Source: Oscillospiraceae bacterium
Lineage (GTDB): Bacteria; Bacillota; Clostridia; Oscillospirales; Ruminococcaceae
Reading direction: 5' to 3'
NCBI GenBank assembly: GCA_015067025.1
Contig: SVNC01000003.1
Location: 1-64,000 of the forward strand
Length of the DNA stretch: 64,000 bases
Positions within the stretch are counted from its first letter, which is position 1, and the number at the start of each line of letters is the position of its first letter. The notes below the pieces were generated by a model. That model saw nothing but the letters and a program-made list of their open reading frames with translations, made no database searches and had not been told where the DNA came from. Positions 44,480-56,105 of the stretch are shown here, one piece after another. A program made the position numbers and the translations under genes.

Positions 44480-44773
44480 TTACATTTTACCTTTTTTCAT
44501 ATCGTTTGCGGAATATACTACTTCGGCATAGATAGCCGCGATAACCTTGTAAAGCTCTACGGGTATACATTCGCCGCTGTTAAGCATGACGAGAAGGGCG
44601 GCCGTACTGTCGTCACGATATACGGGTACGCCGTTTTCATCCGCAATATTTATAATCTTTTTAGCAAGCTCTCCAAGTCCTGAGGCTACTACTACGGGAG
44701 CATAGCTCATTTCAGGATTGTATTTTAAGGCTGCCGCCGCCTGCTGACCAAAATTTCTGCTACGCTTGGACAT
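44480..44773 (-). CDS. FlhB C-terminal-domain homologue (YlqH type)
   Basis: 97 aa. It corresponds to the cytoplasmic C-terminal domain of FlhB/YscU, the export-switch protein of flagellar and type III secretion, without the membrane half: AAALKYNPEMSYAPVVVASGLGELAKKI then GVPVYRDDSTAALL. The self-cleaving NPTH motif is NPEM here, so cleavage is not expected. Such stand-alone proteins (YlqH in Bacillus) usually follow a FliK-like gene, as they do here. Overlaps the end of that gene by 14 nt. Confidence 0.9.
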   Translation of the reverse strand: MSKRSRNFGQQAAAALKYNPEMSYAPVVVASGLGELAKKIINIADENGVPVYRDDSTAALLVMLNSGECIPVELYKVIAAIYAEVVYSANDMKKGKM

Positions 44774-46631
44774 TAAGACCTTTCCTCCTGTCTACTATTT
44801 TCGGAAATACCTCGGTAAGATTATGAGGCTTTCTCAGTACTGCCGTTTCCATTTTTACAGGCTTATAGCCTATATTTCTTATGATAAGATCGATCTTGTC
44901 GGTAAAACGCTTCACCCTGTAGTCAAAACCTTCGGGATAAAGGAAGGACAGACTGATATTTTCGCCTAATGCGTACATATCTACTTCAAATCTGCCAACG
45001 GATTCTATATCAAAAGTCAAAAAGAGATGATAGTTCTTCTGCCCTACGGGTGTATTGTTAGGGTTGTTTTCATCGTTATCCACCCAAAGCTCGCCGAATG
45101 CCTTTGTATCTTCAAACTGTAAAGGAAGAACGTAGTGTGCAAGGGGTGTAAATACACCGGGGGCATTTAAAAGGCTCTGCAGAAGATTTGACGCATTGAA
45201 GTTATCAAGAGACTGTATAGCCTCGTGATTTATATTTTTTGCGATAAAGTCTGTCAGCTTATCAAGAGTTGAGGGCGATGAAGGAATGTTGCTGGTGGCA
45301 GGAAGCTCTTTACGCTGTGCCATCGTATTTACGATTTCGGTAAAGGTTCTGAACACGTCCTCACGCTGATCTATATCGGGCATTTCCTTTAAAATATTGT
45401 TGAGATACTCGACAAGCGTCGTCATATCGGCGATACCTTGGATTTCCTTATGTATAACGGGTATCATCTGACGGGACTCAGTGCCGCCAAGCATAGACAT
45501 CAGGATATTCTTGATGGTCTGAAGACCCGACTGCTCTCCGTCCATAAAAGGATTTGACAAAAATTCCAGCTTTTCGGGGGATAAATCTATACCCTCAAGA
45601 TATTCTTCACTGCTTAAATGTGACTTTATGAACAAAGAAAGGGAAGAATTTTCGTCTTTATTGTCAAAAATGCTAAAAAACTCTTGATTTTCTTTTTGAT
45701 TTAGTGTATTATTATAAGTATCAGAATTATCTTCCATTTCACTAAGCTGCTTTGGACTGAAAAGTTTCTGAAGCAGATTATTGAAGGCAGTAGATAACTC
45801 CTTTCGCATCTCGTTTGACGGTATGTAGGTCAGCAGATTTGCGAAGCTCTCCTTCAGCATATACCTGTTGGTGTTATATCGAGAAAGATTATGTACTATA
45901 AGAGGAATAAAGGTCTGGGTTCTCTCATCGTTGAGAAGACTCGCTGATACGTCCTTTAAAAGTGCAAGAGTTTCACCTTTGAGCGGTTCAAACATATGCT
46001 CCGCATCCTCAGCACCCCACTGGTTAGAAAGCTTTGTAAGCTTTGCGGAAAGAGAAGCATTCGGAGAAAAGTATTCAGACAGGAATTTGAGATTTGCACT
46101 GAGTGCGTTAAGTATCTCTTCCTTATTGCTTGAAAAGTTCAGAGCCTTTAAAAGATTTCCTATATTGTCCTTTATTTCAGGGCTTGTGGTAGTTTTTAAA
46201 ATTCCGTGGAGGAGCTTATAGAACTCATCTCCGCTGAACATGGTGTTCTGCTTTTCCTGATTACGTATTTCTTCAACAAGTTTTTCAGGACTTAAGTAAA
46301 AGCTTTTGATAAGCTCATCCATATCACCGTAAAGCTCGGTGTATCCGCTTATCATAGTCTGCTCTAAAATATCGGAGCTTAAGAGGTTTTTAAGGGTCTC
46401 AACAGCCATTGTGGGATCTTTTATCTGTACCGTAAGCGGTGCAAGATTCTTTCTTCCCATCATCATAGCGGCGGCTGAGCCACTATCCTCCTGAGACGTA
46501 CCTGCAGCCTTTAAGGGCTGGGTAAGCTCGACCATATCAAAGGGTTCTATATTACCATCATACTGACGATTAGTAAAAGAATAGCTTTTGTTATTCGATA
46601 CAGGGGATGTCAGCTGTGGGATATTAGGCAT
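44760..46631 (-). CDS. Large FliK/YlqG-like protein
   Basis: 623 aa from the ATG at 46631 (MPNIPQLTSPV), which has AAAGGA upstream; the track start at 46673 lacks a ribosome site. Mostly helical, acidic and without signal peptide or membrane helix. The last about 100 residues (LFLTFDIESVGRFEVDMYALG...YRVKRFTDKIDLIIRNIGYKPV) have the pattern of the FliK hook-length-control C-terminal domain. Coupling to the FlhB-C homologue mirrors ylqG-ylqH. Role unproven; an export or motility link is inferred, and the chemotaxis operon is divergent from it. Confidence 0.75.
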   Translation of the reverse strand: MPNIPQLTSPVSNNKSYSFTNRQYDGNIEPFDMVELTQPLKAAGTSQEDSGSAAAMMMGRKNLAPLTVQIKDPTMAVETLKNLLSSDILEQTMISGYTELYGDMDELIKSFYLSPEKLVEEIRNQEKQNTMFSGDEFYKLLHGILKTTTSPEIKDNIGNLLKALNFSSNKEEILNALSANLKFLSEYFSPNASLSAKLTKLSNQWGAEDAEHMFEPLKGETLALLKDVSASLLNDERTQTFIPLIVHNLSRYNTNRYMLKESFANLLTYIPSNEMRKELSTAFNNLLQKLFSPKQLSEMEDNSDTYNNTLNQKENQEFFSIFDNKDENSSLSLFIKSHLSSEEYLEGIDLSPEKLEFLSNPFMDGEQSGLQTIKNILMSMLGGTESRQMIPVIHKEIQGIADMTTLVEYLNNILKEMPDIDQREDVFRTFTEIVNTMAQRKELPATSNIPSSPSTLDKLTDFIAKNINHEAIQSLDNFNASNLLQSLLNAPGVFTPLAHYVLPLQFEDTKAFGELWVDNDENNPNNTPVGQKNYHLFLTFDIESVGRFEVDMYALGENISLSFLYPEGFDYRVKRFTDKIDLIIRNIGYKPVKMETAVLRKPHNLTEVFPKIVDRRKGLNVQA

Positions 46632-46692
46632 AAGGTTCATTCCTTTCATACATATTATGTAAAGGGTGACCACTGGGAGTGGCTATACATAT

Positions 46693-46721
46693 AGTTTAGC
46701 ACACTTTTTCGGATTTATCAA
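46693..46721 (-). promoter_or_regulatory. Promoter of the FliK-like/FlhB-C/ECF run
   Basis: TTGATA, 17-nt spacer, TAAACT on the minus strand. I find no convincing sigma-A or SigD promoter for cheA in the same 148-nt gap. Confidence 0.6.
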
Positions 46722-46779: not shown

Positions 46780-48843
46780 ATGGCAAAGGTTGAAGCAGGC
46801 ATGGAATCCATGCTCGAGGCGTACATATTCGAAACCAACTCGCTGCTTGAGCAGCTCGACGAAATTTTACTGAGAACGGAGGACGCAGGCTTCTTTGTAG
46901 AAGAGGACATTAACGAAATTTTCCGTATAATGCACACCATTAAGGGCTCTTCTGCAATGATGGGATTTGAAAATCTTCAAAATCTCGCTCACAAGGGCGA
47001 AGATATGTTCTTCGTAATCAGAGAAAAACCTGAAATTGCAAAGGATGCTCCCTTTGTATACGAACTGATATTCGAAGTTTCAGACTTATACAAGGCGGAG
47101 ATCGAATATATCCAGACCAGCGACGATGACGATTTCACTCCTACTGATTTCTCTGAAAACTACACAAAGCTTATGGATGCCACTAAAAAGCTGAAGGCAA
47201 TGGCGGCAGGCGAAGCAGTTCCTGCTGACGCTCCTGCAGCAAGCACGACCGCTGCAAAGGATGCACCCGTTATCGTAAGCGGTGGCGAAGGCTCAATGAC
47301 AGTAAGAGTATTCTTTGAAGAAGGCTGCGGAATGGAAAACCTCCGTGCATTCCTCTTACTCACAAAGATAAAGGAAGAGGGACAGATAATCTCTCATATT
47401 CCCGCAGACGTAGAAACTAACGCTGAAGCTGCAAAGGTAATTGTAGACAGCGGCTTTATCATTACCTTTAAGGGCTTTGACGGCAATAACGATGCCGTTA
47501 TCAAGGCTATCGAAACAGCACTTAACGTTGCTTCCTACGAAATAGTTGAAACTGTAAGTGAGGAAGAAGCAAAGAAGGAAGAAAAGAAGAAAGAAGCTTC
47601 CTCCGGTGCAGCCGCTCCTAAGAGCAGTGCAAAGACTGATGACGCTAAGAAGTCCAGCGGCGGCGGACAAAAGCAGAGCCTTATCAGCGTAAACCTTGCT
47701 AAGCTCGACCAGCTCCACGATATCGTTGGCGAGATAATAACAACAGAATCAATGGTTATCGCTAACCCTGACCTTGAAGGTCTCAGACTTGAAAGCTTCT
47801 CCAAGGCTGCAAGACAGCTCAGAAAACTTACTGATGAGCTTCAGGACGTTGTAATGTCTATCCGAATGGTTCCTCTTGCAGGTGTATTCCAGAAGATGGG
47901 ACGAATCGTCCGTGATATGAAGATGAAGCTCAACAAAGACGCTGAGCTTATCCTCGAAGGTGAAACAACAGAAGTTGATAAGAGCATCGTTGATAGCTTA
48001 AACGATCCTCTTATGCACCTTGTAAGAAACTGTATGGACCACGGTATTGAAACCGACGTTAATGAAAGAATTGCACTCGGCAAGCCGGCAAAGGCTACTG
48101 TAAAGCTTGCCGCAAAGCACTCTTCAAACGAAGTTATCATTACAGTATCTGACGATGGTAAGGGTATCAATTGCGAAAAGATACTCGCAAAGGCTGTTAA
48201 GAACGGTCTGCTCACAAAGCCTGAAAGCGAATACACAAATAAAGAAATCCAGAATATGATCCTTCTCCCCGGCTTCTCCACAAACGAACAGGTTACAGAG
48301 TACAGCGGCCGTGGTGTTGGTATGGACGTTGTTAAGTCAAGCATCGAACAGGTCGGCGGTACACTTACCGTTGACAGTGAAGAAGGAAAGGGTACAAGCT
48401 TTATCATCAAGATCCCTCTGACACTTGCAATCGTTGAAGGTATGAAGCTTAAGGTTGGTACTACAATATTTACAGTTCCGATCTCCTCTATAAGAGAAAG
48501 CCTTATGGTTGGCAACAATAAGCTGATAAACGACACTCAGCAGGGCGAAATGATAATGATCAGAGGTATCTGCTATCCTATTTTAAGACTCCACGAAAAG
48601 TTCAAGATGCCCACAGACGTTACAGATCTCAACGAAGGCATTCTCCTTCTTGTTGACGTTGACGGCAAGTCGGTATGCTTATTCGCAGACAGACTTATCG
48701 GCGAACAGCCTGTAGTAGTTAAGCCCTTCCCCAAGTATTTAAGCCAGTACAATATCAAAGCAGAGGGTCTGTCAGGATGTACTGTTATGGGTGATGGTAC
48801 AATTTCACTTATTATAGATGTAAACACACTTATAAACAGCTGA
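46780..48843 (+). CDS. cheA: Chemotaxis histidine kinase CheA
   Basis: 687 aa from the ATG at 46780 (MAKVEAGMES); the track start at 46666 lies in the divergent promoter region. P1 phosphotransfer domain with H52 in MHTIKGSSAMMGF; a P2-like response-regulator docking domain at about 165-260; an Ala/Lys/Ser linker; P3 dimerisation; P4 kinase domain with the N-box HLVRNCMDHGIE and SGRGVGMDVV; and a P5 CheW-like domain. All catalytic parts are intact. First gene of a cheA-cheW-cheR-cheB-GH5 run; no cheY, cheC, cheD or receptor gene is beside it. Confidence 0.97.
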   Translation: MAKVEAGMESMLEAYIFETNSLLEQLDEILLRTEDAGFFVEEDINEIFRIMHTIKGSSAMMGFENLQNLAHKGEDMFFVIREKPEIAKDAPFVYELIFEVSDLYKAEIEYIQTSDDDDFTPTDFSENYTKLMDATKKLKAMAAGEAVPADAPAASTTAAKDAPVIVSGGEGSMTVRVFFEEGCGMENLRAFLLLTKIKEEGQIISHIPADVETNAEAAKVIVDSGFIITFKGFDGNNDAVIKAIETALNVASYEIVETVSEEEAKKEEKKKEASSGAAAPKSSAKTDDAKKSSGGGQKQSLISVNLAKLDQLHDIVGEIITTESMVIANPDLEGLRLESFSKAARQLRKLTDELQDVVMSIRMVPLAGVFQKMGRIVRDMKMKLNKDAELILEGETTEVDKSIVDSLNDPLMHLVRNCMDHGIETDVNERIALGKPAKATVKLAAKHSSNEVIITVSDDGKGINCEKILAKAVKNGLLTKPESEYTNKEIQNMILLPGFSTNEQVTEYSGRGVGMDVVKSSIEQVGGTLTVDSEEGKGTSFIIKIPLTLAIVEGMKLKVGTTIFTVPISSIRESLMVGNNKLINDTQQGEMIMIRGICYPILRLHEKFKMPTDVTDLNEGILLLVDVDGKSVCLFADRLIGEQPVVVKPFPKYLSQYNIKAEGLSGCTVMGDGTISLIIDVNTLINS

Positions 48844-48885
48844 TAAACGGCTTATCACAAAATCTAAGATCGGGAGGATAATACT

Positions 48886-49413
48886 GTGGCAACAGTAAAC
48901 TATAACGAAAAACTTCAGGCACTTTTAAGCAGCCAGGCTGAAATCGAGGCTGCTAAGAAGGACGCCTCAAATCAGGAGATAACCAAGGTTCTTACCTTTA
49001 ATATAGGCGAACAGGTATATGGTATTGAAATCCCCTATGTTGTTGAAATCATAGAGGTTTCTCCCATTACGGCTGTACCCGGAGTTCCTGAATACATAAA
49101 GGGTATCATCAACGTACGAAGCAAGATCGTGCCTGTAGTAAACATAAGAAGCAGATTCGGCAAGCCCGAAATTCCCTTCACAGAACGTACCTGCGTAATC
49201 CACGTATCAACCGGTGATACATCCGTAGGTCTTATCGTTGACAGTGTTGCTGATGTAATTTCTATTTCAGAAAAGCACATCTCAAGAACACCTGAATTAA
49301 ACAATATAAACCAGAGCAAGTTCATTAAATTTATTCTTGAAATGAACGATGGCATCAAACTTGTTCTTGATGTAGCAAAGCTTATTGACGATCAGATCCG
49401 CGAGGACACCTGA
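48886..49413 (+). CDS. cheW: Chemotaxis coupling protein CheW
   Basis: 175 aa, starting at a GTG with GGGAGG upstream. CheW links receptors to CheA. A roughly 32-residue helical N-terminal extension (MATVNYNEKLQALLSSQAE) precedes the normal beta-barrel core: LTFNIGEQVYGIEIPYV, VPGVPEYIKGIINVRSKIVPVVNIRSRFG, and the C-terminal FILEMNDGIKLVLDVAKL. Lies between cheA and cheR with short gaps. Confidence 0.95.
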   Translation: MATVNYNEKLQALLSSQAEIEAAKKDASNQEITKVLTFNIGEQVYGIEIPYVVEIIEVSPITAVPGVPEYIKGIINVRSKIVPVVNIRSRFGKPEIPFTERTCVIHVSTGDTSVGLIVDSVADVISISEKHISRTPELNNINQSKFIKFILEMNDGIKLVLDVAKLIDDQIREDT

Positions 49414-49435
49414 TTTAAAGAAAGACGGTGCTTAA

Positions 49436-50251
49436 TTGTTAAAGATAAACGATAAGGAATTCGAGCGTCTTGTATCCTATATGCGTGATAATTACGGTAT
49501 AAACCTTACTCATAAAAGAGCACTCATTGAAGGCAGACTCAGCAATGCACTCATCGAGCGTGGTTTTAAGAACTATAACGACTATATGGATATGTGTTTT
49601 TCCGATAAAACGGGAAAGGAAATCGACAAGCTGATAATAAAGCTCACCACTAATCATACGTATTTTATGAGAGAGCCTGAGCATTACAGCTTTCTTACTT
49701 CAACCGTCCTTCCCTTTATAAAGGAAGTAAACAAGACAAAATCTATGAGGATCTGGAGTGCCGGCTGTTCAAGCGGCGAAGAAGCCTATACAACAGCAAT
49801 GCACATAAATGAATTTTTAGGTATCGAAAAAAGAAATTGGGATACCAGAATTCTTGCAACGGATATTTCCCTGAAAATACTTTCAAGTGCTCAGGAGGGC
49901 AAATATGCAGCCGCAGGTATGCAGGACCTGCCTGACGCGTGGAAGACAAAATACTTCGACAAATGTGAAGATGATAAATACAAGGTTAAACCGTTTCTTC
50001 GTGATGAGGTAATCTTCCGTACCTTCAACCTTATGGAAGAAATACCTTTCAGAAAAGCCCCCTTTGATCTTATCTTCTGTCGCAACGTAATGATCTACTT
50101 TGAGATGGAAACCAAGATTGAGCTTGTAAAACGCTTCTACGACGTACTCCGTCCCGGCGGATATCTCTTTATTGGTCACGCAGAAAGTATTCCGAGAGAT
50201 ACCACGAACTACGAATACATAAAACCTGCAATCTACAGAAAACCGCTATAA
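49436..50251 (+). CDS. cheR: Chemotaxis methyltransferase CheR
   Basis: 271 aa, starting at TTG. It methylates receptor glutamates with SAM. An N-terminal helical domain (YGINLTHKRALIEGRL) precedes the SAM fold with RIWSAGCSSGEEAYTTAM, ILATDIS and FDLIFCRNVMIYF. The beta-subdomain (KIELVKRFYDVLRPGGYLFIGHAES) is normal. No C-terminal extensions. Followed by a strong hairpin before cheB. Confidence 0.95.
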   Translation: MLKINDKEFERLVSYMRDNYGINLTHKRALIEGRLSNALIERGFKNYNDYMDMCFSDKTGKEIDKLIIKLTTNHTYFMREPEHYSFLTSTVLPFIKEVNKTKSMRIWSAGCSSGEEAYTTAMHINEFLGIEKRNWDTRILATDISLKILSSAQEGKYAAAGMQDLPDAWKTKYFDKCEDDKYKVKPFLRDEVIFRTFNLMEEIPFRKAPFDLIFCRNVMIYFEMETKIELVKRFYDVLRPGGYLFIGHAESIPRDTTNYEYIKPAIYRKPL

Positions 50252-50260
50252 TCTGAAATA

Positions 50261-50290
50261 ATATTTCCGCCACATTTGTGGCGGAAATAT
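50261..50290 (+). other. Intercistronic hairpin between cheR and cheB
   Basis: Perfect 13-bp stem ATATTTCCGCCAC / GTGGCGGAAATAT with a 4-nt loop and no T tract. It could mark mRNA processing or partial termination that lowers cheB-GH5 expression relative to cheA-R. Confidence 0.65.
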
Positions 50291-50314
50291 GTATATACTA
50301 AGGAAAAACCTACT

Positions 50315-51415
50315 ATGAACAAAAAGAATGTCCCTCTTAATGTTGTTGTAACAGGCTCAAGTCCTGCAATCAATCACATAATAACAGACATTATAAACCG
50401 CAGTAATATGGACTTCACAGCCGTCATTTCTGACTCGGCTGATATTGCTATGTCGGAATGTGGTTGCGTAGTAATAAGTGAATATATTCTGAGCAACGAT
50501 TTCGCTATTCCTGATGCCATAAGGGATAAGCCTGTGATACTTGTAACAGGCAATAAAGATGCTTTGGAAAGGCCCTCTGCCTTTGGTGCTTACAAAGTCA
50601 TCAAAAATGCCGATGGCGGTATTGAAGGTCTTGAACGCTTTAAAAAAGCGTTGCTTTGCTCTCTTGATGAGATAAGAACAAAGCCTCAGAAAAGTCACGA
50701 AAAACCAAAAGCGATAAAGCCTGAAAAAGTGAAGAAAGTTCCGCCATGTGCTGAAACAACCGAAAAAGCAGAAGCAGTAAAACCTGCTCCCCAGGTGACG
50801 ACACCTAAAAATATAACGACAAAAATTCCTGCTGATATAAAGGAAAGGGATATAAAACTCATTGCTATCGGGGCAAGTACAGGCGGCACAGATGCTATAA
50901 TTGAAGTCGTCCAGAACCTCCCTGCCGATACTCCACCCGTAGTTATCGTTCAGCATATGCCCGAGGGCTTTACTAAAATGTACTCAGAAAGGCTTAACCG
51001 AATTTGTATAATGGACGCTAAGGAAGCGGAAGACGGCGACAGACTCCGCAAGGGTCTTATAATCCTTGCTCACGGTGCAAAGCAGATGCGAGTTTATAAA
51101 GACGCTCTCGGTTATTACATAAAAAGTGAATTCGGGGAAAAGGTATCGGGACATTGTCCGTCGGTAGACGTGCTTTTTGATTCTGTATCAAAAATTGCAG
51201 GAGAGGAGGCACTCGGCGTTATTCTAACAGGAATGGGCAGAGACGGTGCAAGAGGTATGAAAGCTATGCATGACGCCGGTTCATTCACGATAGGTCAGAA
51301 TAAAGAGACCTGTGTTGTATACGGTATGCCAGCCGTAGCATATGACGAAGGCGGTGTATCGATACAAGCACCCCTTGATGAAATCGGTGATATTATAATT
51401 CAGATAACAAAGTAA
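50315..51415 (+). CDS. cheB: CheB-type methylesterase with degenerate receiver domain
   Basis: 366 aa from the ATG at 50315 (MNKKNVPLNVVVTG); the track start at 50276 lies in the hairpin. The C-terminal catalytic domain is complete: S188 in GASTGGTDAI, H214 in VQHMPEGF and D310 in TGMGRDGA, so it should remove receptor methyl esters. The N-terminal about 120 residues keep the strand pattern of a receiver, but the acidic pair is TG (VVVTGSS), the phospho-acceptor is Ser55 (VVISEYIL), and only the lysine near 97 looks kept. A Lys/Pro/Ala linker joins the halves. So phosphorylation control by CheA is probably lost or replaced. Confidence 0.9.
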   Translation: MNKKNVPLNVVVTGSSPAINHIITDIINRSNMDFTAVISDSADIAMSECGCVVISEYILSNDFAIPDAIRDKPVILVTGNKDALERPSAFGAYKVIKNADGGIEGLERFKKALLCSLDEIRTKPQKSHEKPKAIKPEKVKKVPPCAETTEKAEAVKPAPQVTTPKNITTKIPADIKERDIKLIAIGASTGGTDAIIEVVQNLPADTPPVVIVQHMPEGFTKMYSERLNRICIMDAKEAEDGDRLRKGLIILAHGAKQMRVYKDALGYYIKSEFGEKVSGHCPSVDVLFDSVSKIAGEEALGVILTGMGRDGARGMKAMHDAGSFTIGQNKETCVVYGMPAVAYDEGGVSIQAPLDEIGDIIIQITK

Positions 51416-51432
51416 CAGAAAGGAAATTTTTT

Positions 51433-53442
51433 ATGACAAAGGCAAGAAAATCACTTTCCGTAGTTTCTGCTTTAGTTGCGGTATTTTTCGCATTACTTTT
51501 GGTATGTAATATGCAGACACCCGCTTCAGCAGCAGTTACGGGCAAAACGGCAAATCAGATAGTATCAGAAATGGGTGTAGGCTGGAATTTAGGCAATACC
51601 CTTGACGCAACAGGCGGCAGCGGACTTAACACCGAAACCTCCTGGGGTAATCCTAAAACCACAAAGGCAATGATCGACGCTGTAAAGGCTCAGGGCTTCA
51701 ACACGGTACGTGTTCCTGTTTCCTGGGGCAAGCATATGTCTTCAGATCTCACAATCGACTCTGCCTGGATGGCAAGAGTAAAGGAAATCGTTGATTACTG
51801 CATAGATAACGATATGTATGTAATTTTAAACATCCATCACGATAACGATATCAGAACAGACGGTTACCCCTTCTTCTATCCGAACAGCACCTACAAGGAT
51901 CAGTCAATAAAGTTTGTAAAGGCTGTATGGACTCAGGTTTCTGAAACCTTCAAGAACTACGACCAGCATCTTGTTTTTGAAACTCTTAACGAACCCAGAC
52001 TTATCGGCACAAGCGATGAATGGTGGTTCCCTGTAAACAGCCCCAGTGCTACTGTAGCGGACTCGATCGCTGTTATAAATGAACTTAACCAACAGGCTCT
52101 CAACGTTATCAGAGCTTCCGGCGGCAACAATGCAGAAAGATGCGTTATGATCCCCGGTTACGGCGCGTCGATCGACGGATGTACAACACCCGGATATAAG
52201 CTCCCTACGGACACAGCGTCAAACAGACTTATCGTATCTGTTCACGCTTATACCCCTTATAACTTTGCCCTTAACGCAAGCGGAACGTCTTACTTCTTAT
52301 CCAGCGGCAAGAACGAGATAAACAATCTTTTCAACACTCTGAAGTCAAAGTTCATAAACAATGGTATACCCGTTGTAATCGGTGAAACAAGTGCCTCCAA
52401 CAAGAAGAATTCTGCCGAAAGAGTAAAATGGGCAGAATACTATATGGGTATGGCGGCTGAACTTGGTATCCCCTGTATGCTCTGGGATAACAACGTAGAA
52501 TACAGCGAAGATAATCTTGGTGAAAACCACGGTCATCTCAAACGTTCTACCCTCAAGTGGACAGACCAGGCCTTTGTTGATGCAGTGGTAGAGCCGTTCT
52601 GCAATCTCAAAAAGGTAACAGGCTTTGAGGTCGGCGGTACGACTTCTACTGCACTCAGACTGAACTGGGATAAAAACACATCTGCAGGCGGATATATCAT
52701 TGAACAGTACAAAAATGGCAGCTGGACAAGAATAGCAAGAATAGCAGGTAATTCTACAACAACATACAGAGTTTCAGGTCTTACAGCAGGCGAAACTTAC
52801 AAATTCAGAATTAAGGCATACAAGATAGAAAACTCCGTTGCAATATATAGTAATGAAACTGAGCTTTCTGCACGTACAAAGCCTACAAACGTAACAGGAT
52901 TTTCACTTAAGGGCAAGTCAGGTACAGCTCTCAGACTCGGCTGGAACAAAAACACCTCTGCCGATGGTTACATTATAGAGCAGTACAAGGACGGCAAATG
53001 GACAAGAATAGCAAAGATAACAAACAATGCAACCACGTCATACAGGGTAACAGGTCTTAAGGGCTTTACAGAATACAAATTCAGAATGCGTGCATACAAT
53101 ATGAGCGGCACGACGCCTCTTTACACAGCATATACCGAAGTAGGAACGTGGAAGACAAATCCCTCAGCGATATCAGGCCTTGAAATAGGCGGCAGAGCTT
53201 ACAGTGCGCTCCGCCTTAACTGGGAAAAGAATGATTCTGCCAAAGGCTACATCATCGAAATGTACGAGAACGGCAAATGGACGAGAATAGCAAAGATAAC
53301 CTCAAACGCTACTCTAACATACCGTAAGGCAGGTCTTAAAAACGGTACTACCTACAAGTTCAGAGTTATGACCTACAACTTTGAAGGCAACACACCTGTT
53401 TACAGTGCATATACAGAAATAAGCGGAAAAACAACCGGATAA
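51433..53442 (+). CDS. Secreted GH5 endoglucanase with three FN3-like modules
   Basis: 669 aa. Signal peptide cut near ASA|AV (residue 36). The GH5 domain (about 40-390, subfamily 4-like) opens with GVGWNLGNTLDA, has HHDN, the acid/base glutamate in LNEPR (E187) and the nucleophile in VIGETS (E318). Three FN3-like repeats of about 90 residues follow (about 395-485, 488-577, 580-669), each with LRLxWxKNxSAxGYIIE and WTRIAKI. There is no dockerin, CBM or LPXTG. Likely cleaves beta-1,4-glucans such as cellulose, xyloglucan or lichenan. It starts 17 nt after cheB with no promoter in the gap. AAAGGA gives the start. Confidence 0.95.
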   Translation: MTKARKSLSVVSALVAVFFALLLVCNMQTPASAAVTGKTANQIVSEMGVGWNLGNTLDATGGSGLNTETSWGNPKTTKAMIDAVKAQGFNTVRVPVSWGKHMSSDLTIDSAWMARVKEIVDYCIDNDMYVILNIHHDNDIRTDGYPFFYPNSTYKDQSIKFVKAVWTQVSETFKNYDQHLVFETLNEPRLIGTSDEWWFPVNSPSATVADSIAVINELNQQALNVIRASGGNNAERCVMIPGYGASIDGCTTPGYKLPTDTASNRLIVSVHAYTPYNFALNASGTSYFLSSGKNEINNLFNTLKSKFINNGIPVVIGETSASNKKNSAERVKWAEYYMGMAAELGIPCMLWDNNVEYSEDNLGENHGHLKRSTLKWTDQAFVDAVVEPFCNLKKVTGFEVGGTTSTALRLNWDKNTSAGGYIIEQYKNGSWTRIARIAGNSTTTYRVSGLTAGETYKFRIKAYKIENSVAIYSNETELSARTKPTNVTGFSLKGKSGTALRLGWNKNTSADGYIIEQYKDGKWTRIAKITNNATTSYRVTGLKGFTEYKFRMRAYNMSGTTPLYTAYTEVGTWKTNPSAISGLEIGGRAYSALRLNWEKNDSAKGYIIEMYENGKWTRIAKITSNATLTYRKAGLKNGTTYKFRVMTYNFEGNTPVYSAYTEISGKTTG

Positions 53443-53450
53443 AAAAGCAA

Positions 53451-53485
53451 AACGCCTATGCTTATACAGTTTAAGCATAGGCGTT
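53451..53485. terminator. Terminator of the che-GH5 run and of the glycosyltransferase gene
   Basis: AACGCCTATGCTTA / TAAGCATAGGCGTT stem, followed by AATTTTATTTT on plus and a weaker A/T-rich flank on minus. Confidence 0.85.
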
Positions 53486-55283: not shown

Positions 55284-56105
55284 TCAGATATTAAAAACAT
55301 CGGGATCAAGACTTGCCGCCGAAATCAGATCAGTGAACAGCGTGCTGTAGTGCTTACAATTATCGCCGATAAGCATTGCACCCGATCTTACATAAACAGG
55401 GATATCCGTACCTTTGAAATCAATAGGATCGCCGTTCTGTGACAGAACGCCTTCAGCGAAATCTATCACCTGCTGTTTATCGGATAAACCGGTAATAACT
55501 GCAAATTCATCACCACCTATACGGAACATTACCATATCGTCGGTAAGCTGTTCCTCCACCCTTCTTACCGTTTCACGGATATAGCAGTCGCCTGCCTCGT
55601 GGCCGTAATTTTCGTTTATTGCCATAAGCCTTGCAGAATCAAAGGTAACGATATACGTACCCTTTCTTTCTCTTATAAATTCATATAGATCTGAAACATC
55701 AAACTGTCTTCTCATAACGATTTCTCCTTCGTACTGTACCGCTACAGGCATATTCAGTTTTGGACATATACCTGTAAAACGGCGGTTTTTCTTGAATTTT
55801 GAGGGCGTTTCTCCCCACACACGTGTAAAGGCTCTTGTAAAAGCCTCTGAGGAGCTGTAGCCGTAATTTAGTGCAGTATCAAGTACAGACACACCGCTTT
55901 GTATATCCCTTGCCGCAAGGCTCATACGCCTTTTGGTAATATACTCTCCGACGCTGAAATGAAAGACGTATCTGAAAAGCTTCTGAAGGTTTGATAATGA
56001 ACAGAATGCCGCCTTTGCACAGTCCTCCTGCGTCATTTCTTCATTTATATGCTCTTCTATGTAATTGAGCACCGTTGTCAGAATTGTAAGTCTGCTGTTT
56101 TCCAT
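55284..56105 (-). CDS. AraC-type DNA-binding domain fused to a GGDEF domain
   Basis: 273 aa, soluble. Residues 8-106 are a full AraC double helix-turn-helix (NEEMTQEDCAKAAFCSLSNLQKLF, DTALNYGYSSSEAFTRAFTRVWGETPSKF). Residues about 125-270 are a GGDEF domain with the metal-site region TFDSARLMAINENYGHEAGD and an intact RIGGDEF at 195-201. So it could bind DNA and make or sense c-di-GMP/GTP. The usual phenylalanine-rich DFDxF strand is altered (TFDSAR), leaving activity open. A perfect palindrome overlaps its own transcription start. Confidence 0.88.
   Translation of the reverse strand: MENSRLTILTTVLNYIEEHINEEMTQEDCAKAAFCSLSNLQKLFRYVFHFSVGEYITKRRMSLAARDIQSGVSVLDTALNYGYSSSEAFTRAFTRVWGETPSKFKKNRRFTGICPKLNMPVAVQYEGEIVMRRQFDVSDLYEFIRERKGTYIVTFDSARLMAINENYGHEAGDCYIRETVRRVEEQLTDDMVMFRIGGDEFAVITGLSDKQQVIDFAEGVLSQNGDPIDFKGTDIPVYVRSGAMLIGDNCKHYSTLFTDLISAASLDPDVFNI

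Follow-up and report, generated by a model that had tools for sequence, protein, structure and literature searches.

A secreted GH5 endoglucanase gene as conserved neighbour of a probable flagellar chemotaxis operon, in a lineage where chemotaxis genes outlived the flagellum

Why should a chemotaxis gene cluster run straight into a gene for a secreted glucanase, and what does such a cluster control? The question is raised by a 64,000-nt stretch of an Oscillospiraceae bacterium genome (GenBank assembly GCA_015067025.1, contig SVNC01000003.1, positions 1 to 64,000; hereafter the window), for which an original prediction, made from the sequence of this one stretch, had proposed a cheA-cheW-cheR-cheB-GH5 transcription unit coupling sensing or movement to extracellular beta-glucan cleavage. 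Open reading frames (ORFs) and Pfam domains bear out that gene order on the plus strand, and comparison with related genomes confirms the che–GH5 linkage and shows it to be conserved beyond what the reading of a single sequence could reveal. We consider it fairly probable that the locus is an ordinary flagellar Che operon (cheAWRB) of a gut bacterium of the Eubacterium siraeum group, with a once-captured GH5 as its last cistron, expressed at least in part by read-through. The elements of the locus are as follows.

46780..48843, plus strand: cheA, 687 aa, with Hpt (P1), P2, dimerisation, HATPase and CheW domains, corresponding to P1-P5 (ORF, Pfam)
48886..49413, plus strand: cheW, 175 aa (ORF, Pfam)
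49436..50251, plus strand: cheR, 271 aa (ORF, Pfam)
50315..51415, plus strand: cheB, 366 aa, with a possible alternative TTG start at 50276 (ORF, Pfam)
51416..51432, plus strand: cheB–GH5 junction, 17 nt, containing the ribosome-binding site AAAGGA
51433..53442, plus strand: secreted GH5 (subfamily 4-like) endoglucanase with three fn3 domains, 669 aa (ORF, Pfam)

Conservation of the linkage and the nature of the enzyme

Orthologs of the che-linked GH5 (66-80% identity) were found in 14 of 71 genomes of the genus, the window's own counted, and in 12 of these 14 the gene stands immediately after the che cluster, with gaps of about 15-62 nt. Related genomes are denoted here by G-numbers (G000 being the window's own) and the stretches read from them by L-numbers. 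GH5 directly follows cheB in G000, G039, G104, G106, G031, G026, G014, G019 and G025, follows a cheB lacking its receiver in G009, and follows cheR in G018 and G029, where cheB is absent. This adjacency has still been kept with synonymous sites near saturation among the GH5-linked species, and the genes beyond GH5 differ in several of them. CheB itself is present in 59 of 99 related genomes, and the other che loci inspected in the genus had no such GH5 after cheB. Moreover, in a collection of 84,980 species, che genes occurred in the flanks of five of 80 GH5 loci, all five from this clade, and of none of the 75 others. The linkage exceeds chance, recurring in 12 species and missing from 75 other GH5 loci; the synteny to which the original prediction had looked for a check is thus conserved. 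A PilB tree places the GH5-linked species together in one group of 15 rows (support 100/99), so a single origin is the simplest reading, in which the common ancestor of some 15 sampled species would have gained GH5 on one occasion.

The catalytic domain of the GH5 protein matches structures in the PDB end to end, namely Cel5C (4nf7, 5.8e-125) and a GH5-4 broad-specificity endoglucanase (6xsu, 3.1e-108). Residues E187 and E318 are invariant in 14 of 14 sequences and are taken as the catalytic pair (the acid/base and nucleophile glutamates), and the protein begins with an N-terminal signal peptide, as judged by eye. With GH5_4 enzymes as its nearest PDB relatives, it is predicted to be a GH5_4-type beta-glucan endoglucanase, with cellulose, xyloglucan and mixed-linkage glucan as candidate substrates. 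Further secreted fn3 proteins are encoded beside the che-linked GH5 in three relatives: a tandem GH5 duplicate in G104 (L134 8220-13009), a second, different GH5 in G025 (L089 4833-9032), and a BspA-type leucine-rich repeat protein in G009 (L136 5510-10507).

A flagellar operon elsewhere in the genome

The original prediction had noted that cheY, cheC and a receptor are missing, had suggested that the Che output may not be a flagellar motor, and had proposed a search for flagellar or type IV pilus genes. The absence is correct for the locus and incorrect for the genome (2.41 Mb, 98.5% complete), which we sampled by searches and selected stretches. Both kinds of genes were found, the type IV pilus ATPase genes pilB and pilT being present alongside a flagellar operon on contig C6 (ORFs, L143). 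This operon contains genes for FlgD, FlgE, MotA, MotB, FliM, FliY, CheY, FliO, FliP, FliQ, FliR, FlhB, FlhA, FliA, two FlgF/G-like proteins, CheC and CheD. FliG and FlhA were confirmed by profile and CheY by search, and the counterparts of cheC and cheD in G035 match Pfam. A hook-filament locus (L103, G000:C12:22001-42000) carries FlgN-, FlgK-, FlgL-, FliW-, FliD- and FliS-like genes. Six MCP-domain matches (methyl-accepting chemotaxis proteins) above the cut-off lie elsewhere in the genome, and there is one CheB. A non-flagellar output in the window's own genome is therefore contradicted by an operon holding cheY, cheC, cheD, fliM, fliY and flhA, with FliG and MotAB also present. Downstream of cheD in the flagellar operon lies a gene for a large secreted repeat protein with no Pfam match (L338 8636-10660, minus strand; L339 9917-13057, plus strand), which occurs after cheD in both G014 and the window's genome.

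The layout of this operon is the same as that published for E. siraeum V10Sc8a, in which, according to the motility loci described there, fliA follows flhA and cheC-cheD come near the end (PMC3720852). Close relatives of the GH5 locus include metagenome-assembled genomes labelled Ruminiclostridium sp. or Eubacterium sp. Given this gene order and these named relatives, we infer that the window belongs to the E. siraeum group.

Two further genes lie upstream of cheA, and a third lies downstream of GH5.

44480..44773, minus strand: FlhB C-terminal-like small protein (FhlB-like), 97-aa ORF, divergent from cheA
44760..46631, minus strand: 623-aa protein beside the FhlB-like gene, in a FliK-like position
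55284..56105, minus strand: unusual fusion of an AraC-type helix-turn-helix to a GGDEF domain (273 aa); G104 and G106 have orthologs in the matching position

The FhlB-like family call is based on sequence and neighbouring genes, and its orthologs adjoin the che cluster in flagellated relatives. The 623-aa protein had no match in a Pfam search; its gene adjoins che in most flagellated genus members inspected and is absent at the loci of non-flagellated members, and from its FliK-like position next to the FhlB-like gene the protein is probably flagellar.

In the window the CheB receiver (50315-50850) has lost the acidic pair and the phospho-Asp and gives no Response_reg match, and the methylesterase domain is intact (sequence comparison, Pfam). 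The same state, a receiver without phosphorylation residues together with a retained methylesterase domain, is found in nine of nine flagellated GH5-linked species; beyond the clade, members of the genus carry the phospho-Asp motif, mostly with the usual DD pair. The receiver is missing altogether in G009, G035 and G030, and the cheB gene is missing in G018 and G029. CheB has decayed by grades along the lineage, loss of the phosphorylation site being followed by loss of the receiver and finally of the cheB gene. A reading of the G009 gene as a pseudogene was rejected; the premature stop precedes the likely start, so the gene is read as a CheB without a receiver.

In the reading we favour, CheA, whose P1-P5 domains and motifs are intact in the window, would pass phosphate to the CheY of the flagellar operon, CheC, CheD and FliY from that operon would provide signal termination and adaptation, and CheB would serve as a methylesterase no longer switchable by CheA phosphorylation.

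Transcription signals and the case for a passive neighbour

The 17-nt cheB–GH5 gap, said to leave no room for a promoter, is occupied by a ribosome-binding site, and the 150 nt upstream of GH5 contain no sigma-70-like site above shuffle level (P = 0.66) and no terminator. The next terminator was placed after GH5, where a strong terminator-like hairpin is indeed found; a perfect 14-bp hairpin between cheR and cheB, which had gone unmentioned, could divide the unit.

46666..46695, plus strand: candidate sigma-A promoter of cheA, GTGACC-18-TATAGT
50261..50290, no strand assigned: perfect 14-bp inverted repeat or hairpin in the cheR-cheB gap, free energy (dG) -22.2 kcal/mol, z -6.75
53451..53485, no strand assigned: bidirectional terminator-like hairpin common to GH5 and a convergent glycosyltransferase gene, 14-bp stem with T-rich tail

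The candidate cheA promoter has a counterpart at the same place (TTGACC-18-TATAGT) in G104 and G106, and does not exceed the shuffle level when the window is scored alone. Sigma-28 sites (TAAA-N16/17-MCGATA) were also considered upstream of cheA or GH5 and rejected, the matches having one mismatch each and none being well placed. The inverted repeat of the cheR-cheB gap occurs once in the window, and its hairpin, equal in stability to the final terminator, is kept in five species (the window's, G039, G104, G106 and G025), among which two base pairs have undergone compensatory change in both arms. Lacking a clean T-run, the hairpin may serve as attenuator, processing site or operator. The genes share a strand, and the cheB-GH5 junction combines a short gap with no above-chance promoter and no terminator; a single transcription unit from cheA to GH5 is plausible, and the hairpin in the cheR-cheB gap speaks against it.

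As the arrangement has been kept in at least 12 species, even in relatives without flagella, co-expression of che and GH5 is likely. The enzyme would be made at least in part via read-through from the che promoter, and cells building a sensory array would at the same time export a glucanase releasing soluble beta-glucan oligosaccharides. The gene order and its conservation, the junction, the decay of the CheB receiver and the placement of cheY, cheC and cheD in the flagellar operon come directly from the sequence; co-transcription, co-regulation, a functional coupling of sensing to beta-glucan cleavage and any benefit of it are inferred.

Several observations weigh against the reading of a captured, read-through-expressed GH5 in a flagellar operon. 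Nine other GH5 matches lie elsewhere in the window's genome, none reported near the che locus. The window's assembly yielded no flagellin apart from the FlgL-like gene, and the hook-filament locus has none; flagellated relatives have a flagellin gene, and that of E. siraeum, as its motility loci are described, is situated away from the flgK-fliD locus (PMC3720852). One extra gene, encoding a 576-aa lipoprotein-like product, stands between cheB and GH5 in G035 (L100 8227-9957), and G013 retains GH5 though it has lost the che block and the neighbouring flagellar pair, so GH5 does not depend on che; there the gene adjoins an ECF-transporter (energy-coupling factor) gene resembling the one that flanks the che block elsewhere. 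Additionally, the conserved and stable cheR-cheB hairpin could set cheB-GH5 partly apart as a unit of its own.

The solitary GH5 of G013, the inserted gene of G035 and the hairpin would each suit a passive neighbour, that is, a GH5 that landed after cheB once and was inherited in a slowly rearranging region with a promoter of its own, inside cheB or downstream of the hairpin. Promoter-like sites directly upstream of GH5 in G014 (P = 0.05) and G019 (P = 0.09) are weakly suggestive of the same. Conversely, no above-chance promoter lies upstream of GH5 in the window's species, and the adjacency survived the loss of cheB, the loss of flagella and a turnover of the genes further out. We regard passive inheritance as possible, if rather unlikely.

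Chemotaxis genes without a flagellum, and comparison with known systems

Five sister species (G009, G018, G029, G030 and G035), monophyletic in the PilB tree (support 99/100), have che genes and no detectable flagellum, as FliG, FlhA and flagellin were not found in their assemblies (96-99% complete). With these gone, the Che output there cannot be a flagellum; a non-flagellar output is, against expectation, forced for this sister clade. CheA is retained in all five with domains and motifs intact, CheY shares 62-64% identity with its counterpart in the window's genome, CheC and CheD are kept (on the short G030 contig CheD is seen and CheC was not read out), and each genome has three or four MCP matches. 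The che loci of G009, G018, G029 and G035 also include CheW and CheR, and GH5 lies next to che in four of the five, these being all whose contig reaches it (one gene intervening in G035). Ratios of nonsynonymous to synonymous substitution (dN/dS) for che genes are about 0.1-0.3 in these species and 0.02-0.05 in flagellated ones, implying genes that are not free to decay, yet are less constrained than their flagellated counterparts; these ratios leave aside the cheA rows with G000 and the cheB catalytic-domain row with G106, which have frame errors. The cheY, cheC and cheD genes form an island (stretches among L138, L139, L136, L100 and L240-L245) next to a divergent dCache-PAS-GGDEF gene, whose GGDEF protein has no receiver; the secreted repeat protein of the flagellar operon is kept in the island after flagellum loss (L243 4478-7186, minus strand). 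Type IV pili and cyclic di-GMP (c-di-GMP) are candidates for the output of this clade.

A wider reading, which we judge improbable, is that the Che pathway was re-used for plant-fibre attachment or degradation, acting on type IV pili or c-di-GMP and having GH5 co-expressed as one of its arms, adding to flagellar control in flagellated species and replacing it in the sister clade. The retention of CheA, CheR, CheY, CheC, CheD and MCPs under purifying selection in five species without flagella is in keeping with re-use, as are the presence of pilB and pilT in each of 20 genomes examined and the GGDEF gene divergent to the island; on the other hand, che is unlinked to the pil genes, CheY is a single-domain protein, and pili are also present in genomes without che. 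That the Che genes are instead a slowly decaying relic, functionless in the non-flagellated clade and partly across the whole clade, with GH5 the still-useful part, deserves little credence, for although CheB was lost in steps, cheW and cheR have dN/dS of about 0.19-0.23 against 0.02-0.05 in flagellated pairs, and the entire Che system is gone from G013, the CheA domains and motifs are intact in five species despite near-saturated synonymous sites, and a matching cheY-C-D island and receptors have been retained.

On the favoured reading the locus is a flagellar Che operon that took up a glucanase gene, within a lineage whose Che system persisted after the flagellum was lost; in the open papers searched, we found neither a glycoside hydrolase as the conserved last gene of a chemotaxis operon nor a che-cellulase operon. 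The clade forms a natural series: flagella, the CheB receiver and cheB drop out, in the end the entire che block does too, and GH5 remains. It opens to test what role a flagellar Che system has once the motor is lost, and whether gut fibre degraders co-regulate glucan cleavage and glucan sensing.

The locus can be set beside known systems. The window's GH5 resembles GH5_4 enzymes (Cel5C 4nf7; 6xsu) in its full-length catalytic-domain match and invariant catalytic glutamates, and differs in having three C-terminal fn3 domains, no dockerin match and a place at the end of a che cluster. The sister clade, with its Che core and no flagella, recalls the type IV pilus (Tfp) and alternative cellular function (ACF) chemosensory classes (PMC3447774); unlike these, it pairs a single-domain CheY with CheC and CheD in the manner of flagellar systems, and neither a multidomain regulator nor a linkage to pil genes was seen; it has the look of a flagellar pathway still in place after the flagellum was lost. 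The motility loci of E. siraeum (Neville et al., 2013, PMC3720852) are similar in having only cheC and cheD in the flagellar locus, fliA between flhA and the flgF/G-like genes, and flagellin apart from flgK-fliD, whereas the account of these loci does not extend to the position of cheA, cheW or cheB or to an adjoining GH5. A parallel in signalling is the F1-type flagellar pathway that includes CheC and CheD, known from Bacillus subtilis and many Firmicutes, which shares CheA P1-P5, CheW, CheR, CheB, CheC, CheD, CheY and FliY, with cheY, cheC and cheD within the flagellar operon; in contrast to it, the window's cheAWRB is separate from the flagellar operon, the CheB receiver is without phosphorylation residues, and the last gene encodes a secreted glucanase.

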